In this document: piece by piece, positions 1-64,000 of the stretch | Layout: every line of letters starts with the position of its first letter | How positions within the stretch are numbered: the first letter of the stretch is position 1 | Origin: Streptomyces netropsis | Lineage (GTDB): Bacteria > Actinomycetota > Actinomycetes > Streptomycetales > Streptomycetaceae | Direction of reading: 5' to 3' | Length of the DNA: 64,000 nt | Assembly (NCBI RefSeq): GCF_014203545.1 | Contig: NZ_JACHJG010000002.1 | Location: 434,001 to 498,000, forward strand | The notes under the pieces: model-generated | Database searches by the model: none | Told to the model about the DNA's origin: nothing | The model's input: only the letters and a program-made list of their open reading frames with translations | Program-made: the position numbers and the translations under genes

Positions 1-28416
<28,416 letters not shown>

Positions 28417-28428
28417 CGGAGTAGAGAC

Positions 28429-44610
<16,182 letters not shown>

Positions 44611-44646: not shown

Positions 44647-47600
44647 ATGCCGGACGACAAGAAACTCGTCGACTACCTGAAGTGGGTCACCGCCGATCTG
44701 CACGAGACCCGGCAGCGCCTGCGGGAGGTCGAATCCGGCCGGCACGAGCCGGTGGCGATCGTGGGAATGGCCTGCCGGCTGCCTGGCGAAGTCCGCTCCC
44801 CGGAGGAACTGTGGGATCTCGTCGCCTCCGGCGGTGACGCGATCAACAGCTTCCCGAACGACCGTGGCTGGGACCTGGATGTGCTGGCCGCCGACGGACA
44901 GGGCGGCAGCGCGACGCTCGAGAGCGGATTCCTCTACGACCTCGCGGACTTCGATCCGGGGTTCTTCGGGATCTCGCCGCGTGAGGCGGTGGCGATGGAC
45001 CCCCAGCAGCGCCTGCTGCTGGAGGTGTCCTGGGAGGCGATGGAACGCGCGGGAATCGATCCGGTCTCGCTGCGGGGCACCAGGACCGGTGTCTTCGTGG
45101 GCACCAGCGACCAGGACTACGTCCACCTGGTGCTGGCCTCGCAGGACGACATGGGCGGCTACGCCGGTACCGGTCTGGCGGCGAGCGTCCTCTCGGGCAG
45201 GCTGTCCTTCACCCTCGGGCTCGAAGGGCCCGCGGTGACGGTGGACACGGCCTGCTCCTCGTCGCTGGTCTCGCTGCACCTCGCGGCGCAGGCGCTGCGC
45301 AACGGTGAGTGCTCGCTGGCACTGGCCGGTGGCGCGACGGTGATGGCGACCTCCGCGAACTTCGCCGGATTCAGCCAACAGGGCGGCCTCGCACCCGACG
45401 GGCGCTGCAAGTCCTTCTCCGATGCCGCGAACGGCACCGCCTGGTCGGAGGGCGCCGGCATGCTGCTGGTGGAGCGGCTCTCCGACGCCCGGCGCAACGG
45501 CCACCCGGTCCTCGCGGTGCTGCGGGGCAGTGCCGTGAACCAGGACGGCGCGTCGAACGGTCTGACGGCGCCCAACGGCCCCTCGCAGCAGCGGGTGATC
45601 CGCCAGGCCCTGGCCAGTGGTGGTCTGTCACCGGCCGACGTGGACGCGGTCGAGGCGCACGGCACGGGCACCACGCTGGGTGACCCGATCGAGGCACAGG
45701 CGCTCCTGACCACCTACGGCCAGGACCGGGAGCGCCCGCTGCTGCTGGGCTCGCTGAAGTCGAACATCGGCCACACGCAGGCCGCCTCCGGCGTCGCCGG
45801 TGTGATCAAGACGGTCATGGCGATACAGCACGGAGTGCTGCCCCGGAGCCTGCATCTGGACACCCCGTCCTCGCACGTGGACTGGGACGCCGGTGCGGTG
45901 GAGCTGTTGACGGACAGCAGGGCATGGCCGGAGACGGGCCGTGTGCGACGTGCCGGTGTGTCGTCGTTCGGCATCAGCGGCACGAACGCGCACGTGATCC
46001 TCGAGCAGGCCCCGTCGGACGAGGACGCCGCATTCGACAGCGTTGTGGAGCCCGGTGTGGTGCCGTGGGCGCTGTCGGGCAAGTCCGCCGAGGCGCTGCG
46101 CGGGCAGGCGGCACGGTTGCTGTCGTGGCTCCAGGAGCACCCCGAGGCGCGGCCGGCGGACATCGGATTCTCGCTCGCGACGGGCCGGACGGCCTTCGAG
46201 TACCGGGCCGTCGTACCGGCCGCCGACCTGGCGGAAGCGGTGGACGCCCTGACGGCACTGGCCGCCGACGAGCCGACGGCCGCGGTGGTCCACGGCGTGG
46301 TCTCGGGTGGAAAGCTCGCGTTCCTGTTCTCCGGGCAGGGCAGTCAGCGGATCGGCATGGGCCGCGAGCTGTACGAGCGCTTCCCCGTCTTCGCCGAGGC
46401 GCTGGACGCCGTCCTCGCCCGGCTGGACCCGGCGTTGGACCGCCCGCTGCGGGACGTGATGTGGGCCGACGACCCGGAGCCGCTGAACCGGACGGGCTTC
46501 ATCCAGCCCGCGCTGTTCGCGGTGGAGGTGGCGCTGTTCCGGCTGCTGGAATCGTGGGGCGTCACCCCCGACTTCGTGGCGGGCCACTCCATCGGCGAGA
46601 TCGCGGCCGCCCATGTGGCGGGGGTGTTCTCGCTGGAGGACGCCTGCCGACTCGTGACGGCCCGCGCGGGGCTGATGCAGGCGCTGCCGACGGGCGGGGC
46701 GATGGTGGCGCTGCAGGCCACCGAGGAGGAGGTCCTGCCGCTGCTGTCCGACCGGCTGTCGCTCGCCGCGGTCAACGGCCCCTCGTCCGTGGTGATCTCC
46801 GGCGACGAGGACGCGGCACTGGAGGTCGCGGCCCGGCTGTCGGCCCAGGGCCGCAAGACGTCCAGGCTGCCGGTCAGCCACGCGGCCCACTCGCCGCTGA
46901 TGGACGCGGTGCTGGACGACTTCCGCGCCGTCGTACAGGGCCTGTCGCCCCGGACGCCGGCCATCCCGGTGGTCTCCCACCTCACCGGCGACGTGGCGGT
47001 GGCCGAGGAACTGTGCTCGGTCGACTACTGGGTGCGGCACGTACGCGAGGCGGTGCGCTTCGCCGACGGCACGCGGACGCTCCTCAAGCAGGGCGTGACC
47101 ACCTTCGTCGAACTGGGCCCGGACGCCGTGCTGTCGGCTCTGGTCCAGGAGACACTCGCGGACGAGACGGTGGTCGTCGTACCCGTCCTGCGCAGGAACC
47201 GTCCCGAGGAACTCACCGCCGTCACCGCCCTGGCCGAGCTGCACGCCGGCGGCGTCACGGTGGACTGGGACGCGTTCTTCCGGGGCACGGGCACGCGTCG
47301 CGTCGACCTGCCGACGTACGCGTTCCAGCGTGAGCGGTTCTGGCCGACGGTCTCGGCGCGCGGCGGTGACGCCGCGGGTCTCGGGCTGATACCCGCCGAG
47401 CATCCACTGCTGGGCGCGGCGATGTCCGTGGCGGGCTCCGACGAGCTGCTCCTGACCGGAACGCTGTCCGTGGCCACGCACCCCTGGCTGGCCGATCACC
47501 GGGTCATGGGCCGGATCACCCTGCCCGGCACGGCGTTCGCCGAACTGGCCGTCCGGGCCGGGGACCAGGCGGGTTGCGACCGGGTGGCGGAGCTGACCCT

Positions 47601-50600
47601 GGACGCCCCGCTGGTCCTCGCTGCGCGGGGCGCGGTCTCGGTCCAGGTGCGCGTCGGGGAGGCGGACGAGTCCGGCCGACGCGCGGTCACCGTCCACTCC
47701 CGGCCAACGGACGCCGTGGACGGGGACTGGACGTCGCACGCCCACGGTGTGCTCGTCGCCTGTGAGCCGACGGGCGGGACCGAGGGGGCCGACGGGCTCG
47801 ACGACGGTGTGTGGCCCCCCAAGGGAGCGCAGCCGGTCGACCTCGCCGACCTGTATCCGCGACTCGACCGGGCCGGACTGGCCTACGGGCCGGTGTTCCA
47901 GGGGCTGCGGGCCGCGTGGCGCCGTGACGGCGAGTGGTACGCGGAGGTGTCGCTCACCCAAGAGGCGGCGTCCACCGGGACCTTCGCGATACACCCGGCG
48001 CTGCTGGACGGTGTCGTCCGGGCCGCCGGTCTGCTGGCCGCCGGTGACTTTGACGGTGGTGTCGTGCCCGGTTCGTGGGGCGGGCTCACCCTGCACGCCT
48101 CCGGTGCCTCGACGCTCCGCGTCAGGCTGGCCGCCACGGACGGGGATTCCCTGTCGTTCACGGCCGTCGACACGGCGGGCGCCCCGGTGGTCTCGGCGGA
48201 GTCGCTCACGCTGCGTCCGCTCTCCGGCGAACAGCGGGTGGCGGTCGCGGCAGCAGGCGGCCAGGCATCGCTGTTCGGTGTCGAGTGGGCCAAGGTCCCG
48301 ACGGGTTCCGCGCCCGTGGCGGGCACCCGTTGGGCCATCGTCGGTGCCGATGAACTCGACCTCGCCTACGCGATGCACCGGGCCGACGAGTCGATCACCG
48401 GATACGGGGACACCCTGGCCGGGGCGATCGGCGACAGCGGCGTCGCGCCGGACGTCTTCCTGGTGCCCGTCGTGGGTGACGCGGCGGACGACGGACCCGC
48501 GTCGGTGCGCGCGTTGACGACCTGGGTGCTGGGTCTGCTGCAGGAATGGCTGGCGGACGAGCGGCTGGCGAACTCACGGCTCGTGTTCGTGACCCGGGGC
48601 GCCATCGCCCTCGACGGCGAGGACGTCCGGGACCTGGCCGCGGCCTCGGTATGGGGCCTGGTGCGCTCCGCCCAGACCGAGAACCCCGGCAGCTTCCTGC
48701 TGGTGGACCTGGACGACGCGTTCGTCTCGGCCGCGGAGCTGCCCGGCCTGCTCACCCTGGACGAGCAGCAACTGGCGGTGCGTGCGAACACCGTCCGCGT
48801 GGCCCGTATGGCACGGCTGCCCGAGCGGAGTCCGGCAGGACCGGCAGTGGACGGTGGCGGCCCGTGGGCCGGCCGCGGGACGGTGCTGATCACCGGTGGT
48901 ACGGGTGGCCTCGGCAGCGGCCTGGCGCGTCACCTGGCGGCCGAACACGGCGTGCAGCGACTGCTGTTGGTCAGCCGCCGTGGCGAATCGGCGCCGGGGG
49001 TCGCGGAACTGCGGGCGGAGCTGGGTGCGCTGGGCGCCGAGGTCTCCGTCGCCGCGTGCGACGTGGCCGACCGGGACGCGGTGGCCGCGCTGGTGGCGGG
49101 CGTGCCGGCCGAGCATCCGCTCACGGCCGTGGTGCACACCGCCGGTGTCCTGGACGACGCGATGCTGGGTTCGTTGACGCCTGAGCTCATGGAGCGGGTG
49201 CTGCGGCCGAAGGTGGACGCGGCGTGGCACCTGCACGAGGCGACGCGCGGGCTGGATCTGTCGGCGTTCGTGCTGTACTCGTCCGTCTCCGGTGTGCTGG
49301 GTGCCCCGGGACAGGGCAACTACGCCGCGGCCAACGCGTTCTTGGACGCGCTGGTCCGGCACCGCAGGGGGCTGGGCCTGCCGGGTACCTCGCTGGCCTG
49401 GGGCCCGTGGGCCGAGGGCAGCGGCATGACCGGCTCCCTGAACAAGTCGGACGTGGAACGGATGTCCCGATCGGGTATGCCCCCACTGTCCATGGAACAG
49501 GGCCTGGCCCTGTTCGACGCCGCGATCGGCCGGGCGGAAACGCCGGTCGTCCCGGCCCGCGTCAACATCGCGGGACTGCAGGTGCAGCAGGCGCTGCCGG
49601 CCCTGTGGCGGGACCTGGTCCCGGCCGCGCGTCGCGCGGCCACGGCGGGGGACAGGTCCGCCGTCACGCTGCGGGAGCGGCTGCGAGGTCTCGAAACGGC
49701 GGAGCAGGCAAGCCTCTTCATGGAGGTGGTGGTGGGGTACGCCGCCGGTCTGCTCGGCCACCGGGACGCAAGCGCGATCAACCCCGAGCGTCGCTTCCTC
49801 GAACTCGGCTTCGACTCGCTGGCCTCCGTCGGACTCCGCAACCAGCTCGCCGACGTGCTCGGCATGCGACTGCCGTCCTCAGTGGTGTTCGACAACGAGA
49901 CGCCCGTCAAGCTCGCCGGGTGGCTGCACACCGAGTTCGTGAACCAACACGATCCGAAAGCCGCGCCCACGGCGGCCGGTGGCGCGCGAACGGCCCACCA
50001 CGCGGACGAGACGGTGGAAGGGCTGTTCTTCAACGCGGCGAAGGCCGGCAAGCTGGTCGAGGGCATGCGCCTGCTGAGGGCGGTCGCGAACACCCGGCCC
50101 ACCTTCGAGAGCCCGGCCGAGCTGGAGGAGCTGTCCGCTCCGGTCACCCTGGCCGAAGGCCCGAGCACCCCCCGTCTGGTCTTCGTCAGCGCGCCGGGTG
50201 CCACCGGGGGCGTCCACCAGTACGCCCGTATCGCGGCGCACTTCCGGGGCAAGCGGCATGTCTCCGCGCTCCCGCTCATGGGATTCGCGCCGGGTGAACC
50301 GCTGCCCGCCACCAGCGAGGCCGCGGGCAGAATCGTCGCGGAGAGCGCCCTGCACGCCAGTGACGGCGAGCCGTTCGTCCTGATCGGCCACTCCTCCGGC
50401 GGCTCGCTCGCCTATCAGGCCGCGGGTGTGCTGGAGGAGACGTGGGGGGTCCGTCCCGAGGCGGTCGTCCTGCTGGACACCCCGAGCGTTCGCTACGAGC
50501 CGGGTGAAGGAAACGACCTCGACCAGACCATGCGCTTCTACCTGGCCGACGTCGACTCCCCGTCGGTCAACCTCAACAGTGCGCGGATGTCGGCCATGGC

Positions 50601-50832
50601 CCACTGGTTCATGGCCATGACCAGCATCGAAGCATCCCCCACGACCGCTCCGAAGCTCCTGGTCAAGTGCTCGCTGCCCTGCAACGGCCTCATCTTCGAC
50701 ACCTCGTCGGTGCCCGTGGACGAGGTGCGCACGATCGAGGCCGACCACCTGTCGCTCGCCAAGGAGCACTCGGCACTGACGGCGCGGGCGATCGAGGAGT
50801 GGGTCCGGGCCCTGCCGGCCGCCGGCGCGTGA
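44647..50832 (+). CDS. nysK: Final type I PKS, module 18 plus thioesterase, NysK/AmphK type
   Basis: This 2061-residue cytosolic PKS performs the last extension and releases the chain as a macrolactone. ATG at 44647 lies 36 bp after the previous stop. A plausible ribosome site is AAGGAAGG at 44629-44636; the GAGG that abuts the ATG is too close. N-terminal docking helix: [18 protein letters not shown]. Domains are KS (Cys203), AT (Ser648, GHSIGE but HAAH instead of HAFH), DH (H951, D1121, R1125), B-type KR (LDD, Tyr1559), ACP (Ser1724) and TE (Ser1916 in GHSSG, Asp1944, His2034). About 80 residues of linker separate ACP and TE. Expected chemistry is the C3 hydroxyl followed by lactonisation. 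Confidence 0.95.
44749..49940 (+). other. PKS module 18: KS-AT-DH(doubtful)-KR-ACP
   Basis: KS Cys is at 45253 and AT Ser at 46588. The specificity motif reads HAAH at 46879-46890. The DH has H at 47497 ([10 protein letters not shown]) and Asp at 48007, but the His/Gln normally four residues on is Arg (48019). KR LDD starts at 49150 and Tyr is at 49321. ACP Ser is at 49816. Family products keep a C3 hydroxyl, so this DH is inferred to be silent even though both catalytic residues are present. Confidence 0.82.
50149..50829 (+). other. Thioesterase domain releasing the macrolactone
   Basis: This is an alpha/beta hydrolase thioesterase fused to the C-terminus of module 18. The nucleophile Ser (50392) is in GHSSG, with the Asp at 50476 (LLDTPS) and the His at 50746 (EADHLSLAK). 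It should accept the full chain from the adjacent ACP and close the large ring. The triad is intact. Confidence 0.92.
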
Positions 50833-53782: not shown

Positions 53783-54841
53783 TCAGCGCGCGCCGTAGAA
53801 CTCGCGGATCTTCCCGACGATGTAGGTCTGGTCCTCTTCGGTCAGGCCCGTGTGCGTCGGCAGGTAGAAGCCGTCCTCGGCGAACCTGGTCGCGTTCAGC
53901 GTCGGCCAGACCGGGTCGAGGTAGCCGGGCTGCATGCTCATCGGCTTGAAGAACACCCGGGTCTCGATGGAGGCGTCGGCCAGGAACGCGCGCAGCTCCT
54001 CGCGGCGCTCGGCGCGCAGGTCGTACATCCACAGCACGTCCCGCGGGGGCATCAGGGTGATGCCCTCGATGTCCCGCAGCCCCTCGTCGTAGCGCTTCTC
54101 TATCTCCCGGCGGGTGGCCAGGATCTCGTCCAGCTGCTCGACCTGGGCCAGCGCGACGGCGGCCTGGAGGTTCGTCATACGGAAGTTGTAAGCGAGCTTC
54201 TTGTGCAGGAAGTTGTGTTCCTTGTTGAAGGCCATGCCCCGCAGATGGGCCATCTGCTCCGCCAGCCGGGGGTCGTTCGTGAGGCAGATGCCGCCCTCGC
54301 CAGAGGTGATGATCTTGTTGGCGAAGAGCGAGAAACAGGCGATGTCGCCGACCGGCCGTACGCCGTGCGCCTCCGCCGTGTCCTCGACGACCCGCAGGTT
54401 GTAGTCGTGGGCCAGCTCCATGATCGCGTCCATGTCGCACCGGCGCCCGTAGATGTGCACCGGCATGATGACCTTCGTGCGCGGGGTGATCTTCTCCTCG
54501 ATGCGGGAGACGTCGATATTGAGATCGTCCCCGCAGTCCACGAACACCGGGGTCGCGCCCAGATACGTCGCCGCCCACGCGGTCGCGATCATCGTGAATT
54601 CGGGAATCAGCACCTCGTCGCCCGGGCCGACACCCAGCGCCCGCAGGGCGAGGGTCAGCGCCGTGGTCCCGGAGGAACAGGCGACGCCGTGCGCGACGCC
54701 GTTGTACCGCGCGAATTCGCTCTCGAATTCCTTGACCTTCGGCCCCTGCGACGAGATCCAGCCGTCGTTGATCGCCTCGGTCACATAGGAAAGCTCCCGC
54801 CCCTTGAGCCAGGGCTGCGAAACCGGATACGTGAATGCCAT
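53783..54841 (-). CDS. nysDII: PLP-dependent sugar aminotransferase, mycosamine synthase type (NysDII/AmphDII/PimC)
   Basis: This 352-residue cytosolic enzyme of the DegT/DnrJ/EryC1 family is expected to transaminate a GDP-keto-6-deoxymannose intermediate, using an amino-acid donor, to give GDP-mycosamine. ATG at 54841 follows GAGG with 5-bp spacing, 11 bp after the glycosyltransferase stop, so the two are co-transcribed. PLP features are visible: ACSSGTTAL (residues 54-62), EDTAEAHG (153-160) with the ring-nitrogen Asp, and Lys176 in FANKIITSGEGG as the Schiff-base lysine. It resembles GDP-perosamine synthases. The partner GDP-mannose dehydratase (DIII in nystatin) is not in the window. In the nystatin layout it lies just upstream of base 1. 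Confidence 0.92.
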   Translation of the reverse strand: MAFTYPVSQPWLKGRELSYVTEAINDGWISSQGPKVKEFESEFARYNGVAHGVACSSGTTALTLALRALGVGPGDEVLIPEFTMIATAWAATYLGATPVFVDCGDDLNIDVSRIEEKITPRTKVIMPVHIYGRRCDMDAIMELAHDYNLRVVEDTAEAHGVRPVGDIACFSLFANKIITSGEGGICLTNDPRLAEQMAHLRGMAFNKEHNFLHKKLAYNFRMTNLQAAVALAQVEQLDEILATRREIEKRYDEGLRDIEGITLMPPRDVLWMYDLRAERREELRAFLADASIETRVFFKPMSMQPGYLDPVWPTLNATRFAEDGFYLPTHTGLTEEDQTYIVGKIREFYGAR

Positions 54842-54852
54842 GGAAACCTCGC

Positions 54853-56241
54853 TCAGTCCTTTGCCAGTGCGGGGAGTCCAAGGATCAGATCGGCCGCGGC
54901 GCCCCGCCCGCCGGCCGCCCGCAGAACCTGTCCGAAGTGCTCGGCGCGCTCGCGGAACGAACGGTCGCTGAGCACCCTGGCCAGCTTGTCGACCACGTCG
55001 TCCGCGTCGATGGTCTCGGGGCGGTCGAGCTTCAGGCTCACCCCGAAGTCCTGGCCGCGCCGGGCCTGGTCGTCGCAGTCCACCCACAACGGCCGCACGA
55101 CCAGGGGCTTGCCGAAATACAGGCCCTCGTGGAAACCGTTGCCGCCCGCGTGGGTGAAGAAGACCTTCACGCTCGGGTGGGCCAGCACATCGAGCTGGGA
55201 GGGAACCCAGTCCACGATCCGCAGATTGTCCGGCAGCAGCTCCGCCGAGGGCAGCAGCTTCTGCTGCTCCTGGGGCAGCTTCCACAGGAATTGGTGCCGG
55301 TCGCTCATCCGCCGTGCGACCTCCACCAGCGACGCGATGTGCTCCCGCGTCATCCTGGTGATCGTGCCGAAGCCCATGTAGACCACGGAGTCGTTGTGCG
55401 CGAGCCATTCGGAGAGACCGTCGTCCTCGGGCGCCTGGGGCAGCGGCGGCACCATCGTGCCGACCAGCTTCATCTTGGCGGGAACGGGGAACGGGTAGTC
55501 CAGTTCGGGCACCGAATAGCACAGGACCATCTCGGACTTGTCGATCCGGACCATCATCCCGCGCGCCTCGGGGGAGATGCCCAGCTCCGCGCGGACCTGA
55601 TTGTCCTCCTCCACCACCTTGCGCATGTCGGAGGTCATGAACAGCCCCAGCGTGCGCATTCTGAACAGCTGGTTGGCCACCCGCTGGACGGGGGTCATGT
55701 CCAACGGCAGACCGGTGTGCGGCACGGGAAAGTGAGGCGGCGTGTGCGACTTGGCGAAGGGCACGTGCGAGGTCAGCACATTGCTGGGCAGGAACGGCAC
55801 ACCCAGCACGAACGGGATCTTCTTGGTGACCGCCAGTTCGTACGCGTACTGGCACATGCTCTCGATGACCATCAGCGCCGGCTCGACCTCGTCCACCACG
55901 GCCTCGAGCGCCCGGTACTTCTCCACCCGCGAGCGCGGGGCGAACGAGTGCTTGATGACCGCCCGGTGCGCCTTGAACCTCGACCGCTGCGTCACCTCCC
56001 GGTACGTCTTGTCGTCCCAGGTGACGGCCGACATCTCGGACACCACCTCGCCCAGGGAAGCGAACTCCACCGGGGTGTCCACCTTGAGCGCCTCGATCTC
56101 CGAGCGCCGGTTCTCGTCCGTCGCGAACCACAGGTCCTCGACTCCCCGGCGGGACAGCTCCTCGGCCAGGACGAGCAGCGGATTCAACAGTCCGCTTTCG
56201 GGATAACTGACGAACAGAATCGGCCGCCGAGTCGAGCCCAT
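54853..56241 (-). CDS. nysDI: Glycosyltransferase, mycosaminyl transferase type (NysDI/AmphDI/PimK)
   Basis: This GT1-family, GT-B-fold enzyme of 462 residues is expected to transfer mycosamine from GDP-mycosamine to the C19 hydroxyl of the macrolactone. ATG at 56241 follows GGAGG with 9-bp spacing. Longer in-frame readings upstream run into the promoter region and add no family sequence. The N-terminal acceptor domain starts ILFVSYPESGLLNPLLVLAE. The C-terminal nucleotide-sugar motif THAGGNGFHEGLYFGKPLVV is near residues 360-385. It is the first gene of a minus-strand unit with the aminotransferase and is transcribed divergently from the loading PKS. A PimM-like operator lies about 180-190 bp upstream. 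The acceptor position is inferred from the family. Confidence 0.92.
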   Translation of the reverse strand: MGSTRRPILFVSYPESGLLNPLLVLAEELSRRGVEDLWFATDENRRSEIEALKVDTPVEFASLGEVVSEMSAVTWDDKTYREVTQRSRFKAHRAVIKHSFAPRSRVEKYRALEAVVDEVEPALMVIESMCQYAYELAVTKKIPFVLGVPFLPSNVLTSHVPFAKSHTPPHFPVPHTGLPLDMTPVQRVANQLFRMRTLGLFMTSDMRKVVEEDNQVRAELGISPEARGMMVRIDKSEMVLCYSVPELDYPFPVPAKMKLVGTMVPPLPQAPEDDGLSEWLAHNDSVVYMGFGTITRMTREHIASLVEVARRMSDRHQFLWKLPQEQQKLLPSAELLPDNLRIVDWVPSQLDVLAHPSVKVFFTHAGGNGFHEGLYFGKPLVVRPLWVDCDDQARRGQDFGVSLKLDRPETIDADDVVDKLARVLSDRSFRERAEHFGQVLRAAGGRGAAADLILGLPALAKD

Positions 56242-56417
56242 GACAATAACCCTCCAGAAGTGGCGGCCCGGCAGCTCGGCGCCAGGTGTGCGCACGGCCG
56301 GTCGCCGAGTGGCCGCGTTCATCGATGCCCGCGCCCACAGCCGGCGTCGTCCGCCCGGGACGTCAAGGGACAAGAGTGCGGGAAGAAGCGTGACAGTTAC
56401 TTGGTCTCACGCCAGGT

Positions 56418-56611: not shown

Positions 56612-59600
56612 ATGACGAGCGGAGCAGACAGCGCGTCCTGCGGCGCGGGCGATCAGGGGGCCGGAGCGCACGCCGACGACCCGGTGGTGATCGTCGGGAC
56701 GGCGTGCCGGTACCCCGGCGGCGTACGGTCGGCCGCGGACCTGTGGGACGTGGTCGCCTCCGGCCAGGACGTGATCTCCGCGTTCCCCGCCGACCGCGGC
56801 TGGGACCTGGAGGCCCTCGCCGGTACCGGCCGGGGCTCCAGCGCCACCCGTGAGGGCGGATTCCTCTACGACGCGGCCGACTTCGACGCCGGGTTCTTCG
56901 GCATCTCCCCCCGGGAGGCGCTGGGCATGGACCCGCAGCAGCGCCTGACGCTGGAGGTGTCCTGGGAGGCCGTGGAACACGCCGGGATCGACCCGGTGAG
57001 CCTGCGCGGCAGCCGGACCGGCGTCTTCGTCGGCACGAACGGCCAGGACTACGCGCTCGTCACCCAGCTGTCGACGGAGGACCTGGAAGGGCACTCCCTG
57101 ACCGGACTGTCCCCCGCGGTGGCCTCCGGCCGGGTGGCCTACACCCTCGGACTGGAGGGGCCGGCGATCACCGTGGACACGGCCGCCTCCTCCTCCCTGG
57201 TCGCCCTGCACTGGGCGGCGCAGTCGCTGCGCGCGGGGGAATGCTCGCTCGCCCTGGCCGGCGGGGTGACGGTCATGTCCACCCCGACGGCCTTCGTCGG
57301 GCACTCCCGGCAGGGCGGCATGGCTCCCGACGGGCGGTGCAGGGTGTTCTCCGACGCCGCGGACGGCACGGCTTGGGCCGAGGGCGTCGGCATGGTGCTG
57401 CTGGAACGGCTGTCGGACGCGCGGCGCAACGGTCATCCGGTGCTGGCGGTGCTGCGGGGCAGTGCGGTGAATCAGGATGGTGCGTCGAACGGTCTGACGG
57501 CGCCCAATGGTCCGTCGCAGCAGCGGGTGATCCGTCAGGCGTTGGCCAATGCGGGTCTCACTGCGGCTGATGTGGATGCGGTGGAGGCGCACGGTACGGG
57601 TACCAAGCTGGGTGATCCGATCGAGGCGCAGGCGCTGCTGGCCACGTACGGCCAGGGTCGTGAGGTGCCGTTGCGGCTGGGTTCGTTGAAGTCGAACATC
57701 GGTCATACGCAGGCCGCTGCCGGTGTCGCGGGTGTCATCAAGATGGTCATGGCGATGCGCCACGGCGTCCTCCCCAAGACCCTGCACAGCGACACCGCCT
57801 CCTCCCATGTGGACTGGTCGGCGGGCGCCGTGGAACTGCTCACCGACTCGGTGCCGTGGCCGGAGACGGGGCGCGCCCGGCGGGCCGGGGTGTCGTCGTT
57901 CGGCATCAGCGGCACCAACGCGCACGCGGTGCTGGAGCAGGCCCCGCCGGTCGACGAACCGGTACGGGAGCCGGGCACGGGCACGGCGCCCGCCGTGGTG
58001 CCGTGGGTGATATCCGCCCGCACCGAGGAAGCGCTCGACGCCCAACTGGACCGCGTCAGGCCGCTCGCGGCCGCCGACGCCGGACTCTCACCGGTGGACG
58101 TCGGCTTCTCACTGGCGGCCGGCCGGTCGGTGTTCGAGCACCGCGCGGTGCTGCTCGCCGCACGGGGCGAGACGGCCCTGGCGGCACGTGGCACGGCGGG
58201 CGGCGCGGGAGCACTGGCGGCGCTGTTCCCGGGGCAGGGGAGCCAGCGCCTCGGCATGGGCCGGGAGCTGTACGGCCGGTTCCCGGTGTTCGCCGACGCC
58301 CTGGACAAGGCGCTGTCCGTCCTGGACCGCTACCTGCCGCGCCCGCTCCGGGACGTGATGTGGGGCGACGACCCCGAGGAGCTGAACCTCACCGGCTACA
58401 CCCAGACCGCCCTGTTCGCGGTGGAGGTGGCGCTGTTCCGTCTGGTGGAGTCCTTCGGCGTCACACCGGACTTCGTGGCCGGCCACTCCATCGGCGAGGT
58501 GGCGGCCGCCCATGTGGCCGGGGTGTTCTCGTTGGAGGACGCCTGCCGGCTGGTGGCCGAACGCGGACGGCTGATGCAGGAGGTCGCGGACCGCGGCGCG
58601 ATGGTGGCCGTCCAGGCGACCGAGGACGAGGTGCTGCCGCTGCTGACCGAGAAGGTGTCGATCGCCGCGGTCAACGGCCCGTCGTCGGTGGTCGTCTCCG
58701 GCACCGAGGACGCGGTCCTGGAGATCGCGGGACGACTGGCGGCCGACGGGCGCAAGACCTCGCGGCTGCGGGTGACGATGGCCGCCCACTCGCCGCTGAT
58801 GGAATCGATGCTGGACGCGTTCCGCGCGGTGCTCGAAGGCCTGACGTTCTCCGCGCCGACCCTGCCCGTGGTCTCCAACCTCACCGGCCGCATCGCCGAG
58901 CCCGAGGAGCTGTGCGCGCCGGAGTACTGGGTGCGGCACGTACGCCGGGCCGTCCGCTTCGCCGACGGGATCACGACCCTGCACACGGCCGGCGTCGGCG
59001 TCACCCTCGAACTGGGCCCCGGCGGCATCCTCTCCGCCATGGCCCGGGACTGCCTGGGTGCGGCGGACCTCACGGTGGTGCCCGCGCTGCGCGACGACCG
59101 CGGCGAGGAGGCCGCCCTGGTGACCGCGCTGAGCCGCCTGCACGTCATCGGCGCGCCGGTGGACTGGCCGCGGATGTTCGAGGGCACGGCCGCCCACCGG
59201 GTGGACCTGCCGACGTACGCCTTCCAGCACGAGCGTTTCTGGCCGATCGGCGCGGACACCACGCTGCGGCACACGGCGGTCGACGGTGACCATGCCGAGG
59301 CGCGGCCCGCGCCCGCACCGGCCGGCGGGGCGCGGCCGCTCGGCGAGTGGCTGGAGTCGATGCCCGCCGCCAAGCGCGCCGGGTACCTGCTCGACCTCGT
59401 ACGCTCCGAGGCCGCCGCCGTGCTCGGGCACGGCGGCGTGGGGCGCGTCGGCGCCCACCACATCTTCAAGGAACTGGGCTTCGACTCGCTGACCGCCGTC
59501 GAACTCTGTGACCGGCTGAGCGCCGTCACCGGGCTACGGCTGCCCAGCTCGCTCGTCTTCGACTGCCCGACACCGGCGTCGGTCGCCGACCACCTGCTGG

Positions 59601-59854
59601 CGCACCTCGTGGACGGCTCCCCGGAGTCGGCTCTCCGCGAACTCGACACGCTGGAAGCCGTGGTGCGGGCCGCGGCGGTGGACGGCACGGACGCCGAGCG
59701 CGCGGCGATCGCCGCACGGCTGGACCAACTCGTCCTCTCCCTAAGGGAATTGACGCGAACGGCGGAGCTGCCCGACGACTCCGAAGAGGACATCAAGACG
59801 GCGTCGGTCGACAGACTGCTCGACATCATCGACGAAGAATTCGAAATCGCTTAA
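56612..59854 (+). CDS. nysA: Polyketide loading protein KS(Ala)-AT-ACP, NysA position, without DH
   Basis: This 1080-residue starter module primes the assembly line, expected to give acetate by loading and decarboxylating malonyl-CoA. ATG at 56612 is the only sensible start; the Shine-Dalgarno is weak. The KS (from residue 24) has DTAASSS, with Ala192 where extension KSs have Cys, while EAHGTGT and SNIGHTQ are intact, so it cannot condense but may decarboxylate. The AT has Ser626 in GHSIGE and MAAH in place of HAFH. The AT-ACP linker is only about 60 residues and has no DH. ACP Ser959 is in GFDSL. The C-terminal docking region (leucine-rich helix then [14 protein letters not shown]) matches the N-terminal helix of the next PKS. 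As I recall, NysA and AmphA carry Ser at the KS site and a DH, so this is a stripped-down version. Confidence 0.9.
57407..57843 (+). repeat. KS tract of the loading module, about 99% identical to 60724-61160
   Basis: This 437-bp segment covers the C-terminal half of the KS, including [12 protein letters not shown] and SNIGHTQ. It aligns gap-free with 60724-61160 at offset 3317, and I count about five differences. Codons in most of the tract end in T or G far more than the flanks, so it looks like a recent conversion patch. Confidence 0.9.
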
Positions 59855-59895: not shown

Positions 59896-62800
59896 GTGCA
59901 GGAAGACCAGCAGGACAAAGTTGTCGACTACTTGAGGCGAGTCGCCGCGGACCTCCGACGTGCGCGCCAGCGCATCGACGAACTGGAGTCCAAGAGCCGC
60001 GAGCCGATCGCGATCGTGGGCATGGGCTGCCGGTTCCCCGGCGGGGTCGCCTCGCCGGAGGGGCTGTGGGACCTGGTCGCGTCCGAGGGTGACGCCATCT
60101 CCGGCTTCCCGGCCGACCGCGGCTGGGACCTGGCCGCGCTGACCGGCGACGGCGAGGGCCACAGCGCGACCCACGAGGGCGGATTCCTCTACGAGGCGGG
60201 CGACTTCGACGCCGGGTTCTTCGGGATCTCCCCGCGTGAGGCGCTGGGCATGGACCCGCAGCAGCGGCTGCTGCTGGAGGTCTCCTGGGAGGCGCTGGAG
60301 CGGGCCGGCATCGACCCGCTGTCGCTGCGCGGCAGCCAGGCGGGCGTCTTCGTCGGCTCGTACCACTGGAACCCGGGCACGGCCCGGGCGACGGGCGAAC
60401 TGGACGGCCACGCGCTGACCGGCACCGCGGCCAGCGTCCTGTCGGGACGCCTCGCCTACACACTCGGCCTCGAGGGCCCGGCGCTCACCGTCGACACCGC
60501 CTGCTCGTCCTCGCTGGTGGCCCTGCACGTGGCGATGCGGTCGCTGCGTGACGACGAGTGCTCGCTCGCCGTCGTCGGCGGCGTCACCGTCCTGTCCGAC
60601 CCCGCCGTGTTCGTCGAGTTCAGCAAGCAGGGCGGACTGGCCCCCGACGGCCGCTGCAAGGCGTTCTCCGACGCCGCGGACGGCACGGGCTGGTCCGAGG
60701 GCGTCGGCGCACTCGTCATCGAGCGGCTGTCGGACGCGCGGCGCAACGGTCATCCGGTGCTGGCGGTGCTGCGGGGCAGTGCGGTGAATCAGGATGGTGC
60801 GTCGAACGGTCTGACGGCGCCCAATGGTCCGTCGCAGCAGCGGGTGATCCGTCAGGCGTTGGCCAATGCGGGTCTCACGGCGGCTGATGTGGATGCGGTG
60901 GAGGCGCACGGTACGGGTACCAAGCTGGGTGATCCGATCGAGGCGCAGGCGCTGCTGGCCACCTATGGCCAGGGTCGTGAGGTGCCGTTGCGGCTGGGTT
61001 CGTTGAAGTCGAACATCGGTCATACGCAGGCCGCTGCCGGTGTCGCGGGCGTGATCAAGATGGTCATGGCGATGCGCCACGGCGTCCTCCCCAAGACCCT
61101 GCACAGCGACACCGCCTCCTCCCATGTGGACTGGTCGGCGGGCGCCGTGGAACTGCTCACGGAGTCGGTCGAGTGGCCGGCGGGGGAGCGGCCGCGCCGC
61201 TGCGCGGTGTCGTCCTTCGGCGTCAGCGGGACGAACGCGCACGCGGTGCTGGAGGAAGCACCGCAGGAGGAGCCCGCCGTCGAGGAGCCGCCGACCACGG
61301 ACAACACCGCCACGGTGGTCCCCTGGGTGCTCTCCGGCCGGGCCCCGGCCGCCGTGCGCGACCAGGCCGCGAACCTTCTCTCCCGGCTGGACGCCGAACC
61401 CGGCCTCCGCGCGGTCGACGTGGGGTACTCCCTCGCCTCCCGGTCGCTGTTCGAGCACCGCGCCGTGGTGCTGGGCGCCGGCATGGACGACCTGCGGGAG
61501 GGACTCGGCACCCTGGCGGCCGAGGAGAGCGCCGCAGCCGTCGTCCAGGGTGTCGCGGACATCGAGGGCAAGACGGTGTTCGTGTTCCCGGGGCAGGGTT
61601 CGCAGTGGGTGGGCATGGGTGCCCGGCTGCTGGAGGAGTCGCCCGTCTTCGCCGAGAGGCTGGCGGAGTGCGCGGAGGCGCTGGGCACCTTCGTGGACTG
61701 GTCGTTGACGGACGTCCTGCGCCAGATGCCGGGTGCGCCGTCCCTGGAGCGGGTCGACGTCGTACAGCCGGCGTCGTTCGCGGTGATGGTGTCGTTGGCG
61801 GCGTTGTGGCAGGCGCATGGTGTGCGTCCTGATGCTGTGGTGGGTCATTCTCAGGGTGAGATCGCCGCGGCTGTGGTGTCGGGTGCGTTGTCGTTGGAGG
61901 ACGGCGCGCGGGTGGTGGCGTTGCGGAGCCAGGCGATCGGCCGTCGGCTGGCGGGGCGTGGCGGGATGATGTCGGTCGCGCTGCCGGTCGCGGAGGTCGA
62001 GGAGCGGCTGGACGGTTTCGCGGGCCGGGTGTCGGTCGCGGCGGTCAACGGGCCGCGTTCGGTGGTGGTTTCCGGTGATCCGCAGGGTCTGGACGACCTG
62101 TTCGCGCAGCTCACGGACGAGGGTGTTCGGGTCCGGCGGATCGCGGTGGACTACGCCTCGCACTCCGCTCAGGTCGAGGACCTTCACGAGGAGCTGCTGT
62201 CCGAGCTGGGACCGATCCGTCCCCGCGAGTCCGAGGTGCCGTTCGTCTCGACGGTGTCGGGCGAGTGGCTGGACACCAGCGGGATGGACGCCGAGTACTG
62301 GTACGGCAACCTGCGCAACACCGTCCGGTTCGAAGCGGGCATACGGACGCTGCTCGACGCGGACCACGGCGTGTTCGTGGAGGTCAGCTCGCACCCCGTG
62401 CTGGCGATGGCCGTTCAGGACGTCATCGAGGACGCCGGCGGTCACGCCGTCGCCGTGGGGACCCTGCGGCGCTACGAGGGCGACCTGTACCGCTTCCTGA
62501 CCTCGCTGGCGGAGGTGTACGTCCGGGGCGTCCCGGTCGACTGGCGGTCCGTCCACACCGGCACCGGTGCCCGCCGGGTGGACCTGCCGACCTACGCGTT
62601 CCAGCACGAACGCCTCTGGGCCATGCCGCACGAGGTCGAGCTCCTCGCGGCGGCGGACCCCGCCGACGCCGAGTTCTGGGCCGCCGTGGAGCGGGAGGAC
62701 CTGGGCTCGCTCACCTCCCGTCTGCACATCGACGAGGACTCCCTCGCCGCCGTGCTGCCCGCCCTGTCGTCGTGGCGCCGTGAGCGGCGTGAGCAGTCCG

Positions 62801-64000
62801 CGCTGGACGCGTGGCGCTACCGCGTCGCCTGGTCGCCGCTCAGCGGTGTCCCGCAGGCTTCGGTGTCGGGCACCTGGCTGGTGGTCGGTGCCGAAGGCAT
62901 CGCGGACGACGACGTGGTGGCCGCGCTGTCCGGCCAGGGCGCCGAGGTGCGCCGACTGGTGCTGGACGAGTCCTGCGTCGACCGCACGGTGCTCGCGGCC
63001 CGGCTCGAAAACGCCCACGACGTCTCGGGCATCGTCTCGGTGCTGGCGGCGGCGGAACAGCCGTGCGCCGCGTACCCCGCGCTCGCCTCCGGTCTCGCCC
63101 TGACGGTCGCGCTCGTCCAGGCCCTGGGCGATGCGGGCGTCGACGCCCCGCTGTGGTGCGTGACCCGTGGCGCGGTCTCGACCGGCCGTTCGGACCTGGT
63201 GACGAACCCGGTGCAGGCGCAGGTGCTGGGCGTCGGCTGGACGGCCGCGCTGGAGCACCCGCAGCGCTGGGGCGGCATGATCGACCTGCCCCACACGCTC
63301 GACGAACGCGCCGGCCGACGGCTCGCCGCCGTCCTCACGGGTACCACCGGCGAGGACCAGCTCGCCATCCGGTCCTCCGGTGTCTTCACCCGCCGCGTGG
63401 TCCGGGCCGCCGCCGGCAGCCAGGGCGCGGGACGCGACTGGAAGCCGCGCGGCACGACGCTGATCACCGGCGGCTCCGGGGCGCTGGCCCCGGACCTCGC
63501 GCGATGGCTCGCGGGCCAGGGCGCCGAGCACCTCGTGCTGGTCAGCCGCCGGGGCCCGGACGCGCCCGGCGCCGCCGCGCTGGTGGCCGACCTCGCCGAG
63601 CTGGGCACGGAGGCCGAAGCGGTCGCCTGCGACATCAGCGACCGCGACGCCGTCGCCGGACTGCTGTCGAGGCTCAGGACCGACGGGCGCACCGTGCGGA
63701 CGCTCGTGCACGCCGCGGCGGTCATCGAGCTGGAGTCGCTGGCGGAGACCACCATGGCGGAGTTCGCCAGGGTGGTGCACGCCAAGGTCGCCGGTGCCCG
63801 GCACCTGGACGAACTGCTGGACGACGAGGAGCTCGACGCGTTCGTCCTCTTCTCCTCCATCACCGGCATGTGGGGCAGCGGCCGGCACGCCGCGTACGGC
63901 GCGGGCAACGCCTATCTGAGCGCGCTGGCCGACCACCGCCGCGCCCGTGGCCTGACCGCCACGTCCCTGCACTGGGGGAAGTGGCCCGACGACGCCGAGG
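59896..64000 (+). CDS. nysB: First extension PKS, NysB/AmphB type, module 1 KS-AT(methylmalonyl)-KR(A2), 3' end missing
   Basis: 1368 residues are visible and the frame is open to the window end. The GTG at 59896 is the first start after an in-frame TAA at 59875-59877, with GAGG at 59884-59887 and 8-bp spacing, 41 bp after the loading gene. The N-terminal docking helix is [22 protein letters not shown] Cys203 is present. The AT has Ser652 in GHSQGE and YASH from 62152, so it takes methylmalonyl-CoA. There is no DH. The KR has Trp (63871) eight before and His (63886) three before Tyr (63895), predicting A2 stereochemistry. The ACP lies beyond the window. Expected role: the first propionate unit, setting one methyl-bearing carbon near the lactone oxygen, as in nystatin. 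Confidence 0.92.
60724..61160 (+). repeat. KS tract of module 1, partner of 57407-57843
   Basis: This is the second copy of the 437-bp loading-KS tract. Immediately after it (about 61167 on) the sequence instead follows module 11 (about 11091 on), so this KS is a visible mosaic of two parents. Confidence 0.9.
61741..62244 (+). repeat. Methylmalonyl-AT tract of module 1, partner of 11680-12183
   Basis: This copy of the module 11 AT tract is 50 kb away at constant offset 50061. Similarity continues into the linker and KR N-terminal subdomain (for example 62737-62978), so most of the AT-KR unit is shared between the two methylmalonyl modules. Confidence 0.85.

Follow-up and report, generated by a model that had tools for sequence, protein, structure and literature searches.

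Gene conversion as the probable source of a mosaic first extension module in a nystatin-type polyketide synthase cluster of Streptomyces netropsis

The first extension module (M1) of a polyketide synthase (PKS) cluster in Streptomyces netropsis holds tracts that are nearly identical to two other modules of the same cluster, namely to the loading module (LM) in the C-terminal half of its ketosynthase (KS) and to module 11 (M11) at the end of the KS, in the core of the acyltransferase (AT), in the dimerization element, and in a part ahead of the ketoreductase (KR); the N-terminal half of its KS follows its counterparts in other genomes. The explanation that we strongly favor is ordinary gene conversion within the cluster, in which non-reciprocal homologous recombination between modules of one chromosome would have replaced tracts of ~60–500 bp. 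Such exchange would recur, so that the ATs of M1 and M11 evolve in concert, and selection would keep only those swaps that spare the identity of the KS active site and the substrate class of the AT.

Layout of the cluster and its relatives

The window (i.e., the whole 64,000-nucleotide stretch of DNA that was analyzed) covers positions 434001–498000 of an 808 kb contig, and the PKS cluster spans the window together with flanking DNA. It consists of the LM and 18 extension modules, which by module order and number gives 19 KSs; their count and order are the same as in the clusters of S. noursei and genome G380, and the module numbering used in an earlier note on this DNA fits that order. The PKS genes are listed below (in window-relative numbering, anything below 1 or beyond 64000 belongs to the flanking DNA).

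56612–59854: LM gene
59896–69387: M1–M2 gene (end outside the window)
69408–101738: M3–M8 gene (outside the window)
−5 to 28416: M9–M14 gene (start outside the window)
28429–44610: M15–M17 gene
44647–50832: M18 gene

Between the PKS genes lie two P450 genes and one glycosyltransferase gene, and the order of the modules and their division into genes are as in the nystatin cluster; the nystatin gene names and the roles expected of the modules are those generally given for these clusters. Judged by the match in KS order and this background, the locus is a PKS of the nystatin/amphotericin type, and its modules indicate that the product is probably an antifungal of the nystatin type. As in the nystatin-type cluster of S. 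noursei A-2-1 (L058), the 19 KS domains have the same order and spacing pattern, and the GHSQGE/YASH motifs occur in M1, M2, and M11. The two clusters differ in the enoyl reductase, which is in module 4 here (L004:10703–16831, window-relative 74703–80831, outside the window) and in module 5 in S. noursei A-2-1 (the latter inferred from module length). With dehydratase signals in M5–M9 and the enoyl reductase in module 4, the product may be a pentaene. From the KS of the LM to that of M1 the distance is 3323 bp; S. celluloflavus has 3268 bp, and the clusters of S. fulvorobeus, S. noursei, G380, G119, G028, and S. lushanensis have ~4.2–4.6 kb. The short spacing suggests that the present cluster lacks a segment downstream of its loading AT.

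The clusters compared were those of S. fulvorobeus (G082), S. noursei A-2-1 (G392), S. lushanensis (G394), and G380, together with partial clusters in G028, G119, and S. celluloflavus (G513); the KS trees were built without k95, k225, and k303, and G029, G180, G184, G272, L041, L050, and L072 lay outside the comparisons. No near strain of the S. netropsis cluster was found among 392 plus 296 overlapping genomes (69 of the 392 genomes in the genus search were unscored), the best match to window positions 53790–56317 being 82%.

The ketosynthase half shared by the loading module and module 1

The earlier note had described 60724–61160 as ~99% identical to the loading KS, with breakpoints inside a KS and a recent homogenization, and the alignment supports this description: the best-scoring segment, M1 60724–61160 against LM 57407–57843, has 5 mismatches in 437 aligned bases (98.9%), all of them at codon position 3, as compared with 75.7% identity in the N-half of the KS and 77.1% at its end. 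None of 5000 column shuffles reaches the observed score (maximum 139 vs. 402), and sliding-window and pairwise identity comparisons confirmed the mosaic structure. The relevant features are the following.

57407–57843 (+): LM KS C-half tract, the copy in common with M1 (5 differences in 437; coordinates set by the exact match 60724/57407)
60724–61160 (+): M1 KS C-half tract in common with the LM, approximately Pfam Ketoacyl-synt_C (~60760–61107, M1 residues 289–404)
57185–57187 (+): GCC (Ala instead of Cys/Ser) at the active site of the loading KS, outside the tract
60502–60504 (+): active-site Cys codon of the M1 KS, TGC, outside the tract

The tract begins ~220 bp past the active-site codon and includes the HGTGT and KSNIGH motifs; it coincides with the C-terminal domain of the KS and leaves the active-site region untouched. 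Over the tract, the LM and M1 are 98.8% identical here vs. 75.4–81.5% in seven other LM–M1 pairs and 67–78% against the LM and M1 KSs in the compared clusters (i.e., the C-half pair is closer within than between clusters, as in concerted evolution). Identity to the S. fulvorobeus counterparts is 74.6% (LM) and 75.8% (M1) in the tract and 80.5% and 81.9%, respectively, in the N-half.

In the tree of KS N-halves, module position governs the grouping of LM, M1, M2, M3, M9, and M11–M18, with the eight LM rows in one clade (100/99) and the eight M1 rows in another (100/100); M4–M8 and M10 do not group by position but mostly by genome. In the C-half tree, the present LM pairs with M1 as its sister (100/100) and stands away from six other LMs, and the M1 KS of S. 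fulvorobeus falls with its own M2 and a G119 module (98/95), those of S. lushanensis and G028 with S. lushanensis M2 (100/98). For each segment, we also counted the modules whose best match within the cluster beats their best counterpart. The counts below are for 52 rows (the 19 modules of the four complete clusters minus M4–M8 and M10), for all 76 rows, and for the 52 rows on third positions alone.

KS 60001–60300: 5 of 52; 24 of 76; 22 of 52 on third positions
KS 60301–60660: 3 of 52; 25 of 76; 18 of 52 on third positions
KS C-half: 18 of 52; 42 of 76; 27 of 52 on third positions
Linker: 8 of 52; 21 of 76; 22 of 52 on third positions
AT: 26 of 52; 45 of 76; 35 of 52 on third positions

Over the 52 modules, whose rows are not independent, the contrast between the N- and C-halves of the KS is 15 vs. 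0 at all sites and 14 vs. 5 at third positions (p = 0.064), and its weakness on third positions implies that part of it is protein constraint. Judged from these sequence comparisons, the C-half is subject to repeated exchange within clusters and the N-half mostly tracks position. Tentatively, the KS could be regarded as two evolutionary units, that is, an N-half that holds the active-site residue and keeps its position, and a C-half (Ketoacyl-synt_C, with HGTGT and KSNIGH) that may be exchangeable across the border between loading and extension modules and would here have spread into a loading KS that has lost its chemistry. The tree hints at a second LM–M1 KS exchange, in S. celluloflavus (96/90), but the signal in sliding windows is weak, and we do not claim it. 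In G119 (L120/L121, C450, ~17265–22100), a single module stands between the loading module and the M3 gene, with a KS N-half 93.3% identical to S. fulvorobeus M1 and an AT 93.9% identical to S. fulvorobeus M2; it looks like a fusion of M1 and M2 through a deletion with its breakpoint in the KS, although the draft state of the genome (~460 contigs, frameshifts) could be the cause.

As to the direction of transfer, the earlier note held that the KS half had been copied from the loading module, a claim that the residues of the tract do not bear out. Six further loading KSs differ from six further M1 KSs at nine sites of the tract (G119, k119, was omitted for its frameshifted translation); at these informative sites, both copies have the M1 state in seven cases and the LM state in two, one of which (Glu, 61150) is at the same time the most frequent residue in extension KSs. 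In the N-halves, class identity is preserved, 27 of 43 residues being LM-type in the present LM and 28 of 43 M1-type in the present M1. Because seven of the nine tract residues are extension-type, the loading KS was probably the one overwritten, its C-half replaced by that of M1 or by that of another extension KS that overwrote M1 too, although the tree tests do not decide on the donor. In the best C-half tree, the LM–M1 pair falls within the extension KSs, joined at 87/87 by S. lushanensis M1 and M2 and by G028 M1; by path, the KSs of M6, M7, and M18 lie closest to it. The opposite direction, with the loading KS giving its C-half to M1, would account for the two LM-state residues and agrees with the AU tests, in which a position of the pair within the LM clade is not rejected (p = 0.27) and one within a single M1 clade is (p = 0.008), the M1 rows themselves being scattered in the C-half tree of these tests; set against the seven residues and the best tree, however, we regard it as unlikely.

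The loading module also stands apart in its motifs. Among the eight nystatin-type loading modules examined, only the present one combines Ala in the KS with MAAH in the AT, whereas the other seven, including that of S. noursei A-2-1, have Ser and HAFH; the loading-type modules of other cluster types in G095 and G225 have Ser and YASH. That the Ala active site and MAAH occur in this one module of the eight suggests that the loading KS is idle, i.e., no longer needed catalytically, and replacement of its C-half was perhaps tolerated since a KS of this kind would be dispensable for catalysis. A KS in which the active-site Cys is changed to Ala is not known to carry out condensation but may still decarboxylate. 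A loading AT with GAAH loads acyl-CoA starters directly, according to a 2026 study (PMC12843615), and by analogy the present loading AT may take acyl-CoA directly, leaving the KS as a scaffold.

Patchwork identity and concerted evolution of the module 1 and module 11 acyltransferases

Downstream of the KS tract, the earlier note had M1 nearly identical to M11 from ~61167 into the KR region and drew the rest of the module from M11. The switch is found at ~61165 (11089 in M11), and M11-like patches do follow, but they are patchy rather than continuous, with identity between them dropping to ~58–86%. The match extends over the dimerization element and the pre-catalytic part of the KR region, the catalytic KR of M1 (Pfam residues 1186–1363, ~63451–63984) being only 75–84% identical to M11; the exchange between the M1 and M11 ATs, whichever its direction, recurs in related clusters. 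Of the three modules called distant, M11 lies ~50 kb away, whereas the LM and M1 are neighbors ~3.3 kb apart. The M1–M11 comparison is given below as matches per 60-base window, with the M1 Pfam AT at residues 561–879 (~61576–62532).

61165–61240 (+): M1 KS end, in common with M11 (from ~11089); 57/60, then 49/60
61282–61569: KS–AT linker; 35–41 per 60
61570–61629: 60/60, followed by 47–50 per 60 over 61630–61749
61750–62229: 56–60 per 60, followed by 37–51 per 60 over 62230–62763
61502–62401 (+): M1 AT region qualifying as GRINS (defined below), partner M11; mean best identity 0.93, mean skews 0.21/0.29
11455–12354 (+): M11 AT region qualifying as GRINS, partner M1; mean best identity 0.93, mean skews 0.15 (rounded, just past the cut-off)/0.27
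62740–62989 (+): M1 tract in common with M11, overlapping the dimerization element (Pfam PKS_DE, ~62665–62793); 60/60, 58/59, 59/60, and 43/47 over 62764–62989
62990–63049: 47 per 60
63050–63349 (+): M1 tract in common with M11, ahead of the catalytic KR; 56–60 of 60 per window

Within clusters, the ATs of M1 and M11 (61561–62200) are 94.3% identical in the present genome, 85.2% in S. fulvorobeus, 95.6% in S. noursei, 87.8% in G380, and 94.6% in S. lushanensis; between these five clusters, identity is 73.9–80.8% for M1–M1 and 75.2–82.8% for M11–M11. The pair is thus closer within than between clusters in all five compared, a count that leaves out G119, which is close to S. fulvorobeus, lacks a separate M1 AT, and forms an exception in that its M11 AT is 95.9% identical to the M11 AT of S. 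fulvorobeus. In the AT tree, M1 and M11 are sisters with support of 99–100 in four of the five clusters (the S. fulvorobeus pair is not resolved), and the tests reject a single clade of M1 ATs (p = 0.00017). The ATs of M2 branch together on their own; they carry the same methylmalonyl-type motif as those of M1 and M11 but are just ~62–65% identical to them and have not been drawn in. As part of the explanation favored above, the M1 and M11 ATs very probably evolve in concert through recurrent gene conversion within the cluster.

An assembly artefact, in which reads of one repeat ended up in both copies through collapse or chimerism, would be conceivable in so repetitive a region, and in the draft assemblies of two relatives contigs break off within the M1/M11 AT: in S. 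celluloflavus, the first 94 bases shared exactly with another site tie the start of contig C87 to its own end, and an exact match of 61 bases links the end of C89 to C87 bases 253–313; in S. lushanensis, two contigs stop there. The longest exact runs, however, are 155 bp (M1–LM) and 165 bp (M1–M11), every difference in the KS tract falls on a third codon position, the 808 kb contig also carries an exact repeat of 333 bp (M17–M8, the longest of the cluster), and the M1–M11 AT pattern recurs, at 95.6%, in S. noursei, whose record is titled as a complete chromosome. With the exact repeats short and the same M1/M11 pattern in relatives, misassembly is unlikely, and we give the collapse or chimera of reads a very small chance. 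Duplication of the whole of M1 from M11 (or the reverse) with unequal divergence and no conversion would fit their common KS-AT-KR make-up by motif and length and their common extender motifs, but it is made highly improbable by the separate, supported clades of the two KS N-halves and by identity that runs from 100% to <60% over a few hundred bases inside one module, as well as by the ATs of four other clusters, which again are closer within than between clusters.

Relation to known systems

Both GRINS and the concerted evolution of polyene ATs have been described before; what is worth keeping here is the exchange of half a KS across the loading/extension border and, possibly, an idle loading KS. 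Medema 2014 (PMC4256081) describes cluster-specific branching of polyene ATs and names pimaricin, nystatin, and amphotericin for homogenization. As in that work, domains are homogenized within the cluster; there, however, it is the ATs of the polyenes and not the KSs that are homogenized, whereas here half a KS is shared by the LM and the first extension module. The mycolactone mls PKS (PMC2569948) resembles the present case in recombination-driven replacement of domains, those of the loading module included, but its like domains are >98% identical, and here only patches reach that level. We found no exchange of half a KS between a loading and an extension module in the literature searched, the coverage of which is thin for subscription journals. 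M1 would be a natural example of where PKS modules accept cut-and-paste (past the KS active site, inside the AT, and ahead of the catalytic KR), and such tolerated exchange points could guide module engineering. Exchange of half a KS could be blurred in trees of whole domains, and this exchange and the possibly idle loading KS give testable predictions.

The M1/M11 AT pair also resembles GRINS in its high identity within one PKS and in its GC/TA skew, and gene conversion has been put forward for GRINS (PMC10394414, PMC9899208). We applied the definition of PMC9899208 (an identity of >80% to a second region of the PKS over no fewer than 500 bp, together with a skew cut-off of 0.15), with an ungapped best match in place of the gapped pairwise alignment used there. 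By this measure, both AT regions pass in identity and skew. PMC10394414 describes GRINS as ~1 kb long, often >90% identical, and with GC and TA skews >25%; the cores of the pair show GC and TA skews of 0.249 and 0.347 (M1, 61720–62215) and 0.209 and 0.296 (M11, 11659–12154), the GC mean being lower over the whole region in each case. The LM–M1 KS regions have the identity (0.91–0.92) but fall below the skew cut-off, with 0.14/0.14 at 57152–57931 and 0.12/0.11 at 60482–61261; GRINS as the cause of the KS tract is rejected on these skews (0.11–0.14 vs. 0.15). In this the KS tract and the pre-KR tract are unlike the GRINS described in these papers, being equally identical but under the cut-off. 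Seven of the 44 high-identity regions of the cluster qualify as GRINS, and the present finding concerns a few of the 44. A longer GRINS set than that of M1 and M11, with identity of 0.92–0.95, is formed by the ATs of M16 (36115–37284), M4 (76082–77341), and M6 (87572–88651), the latter two outside the window.
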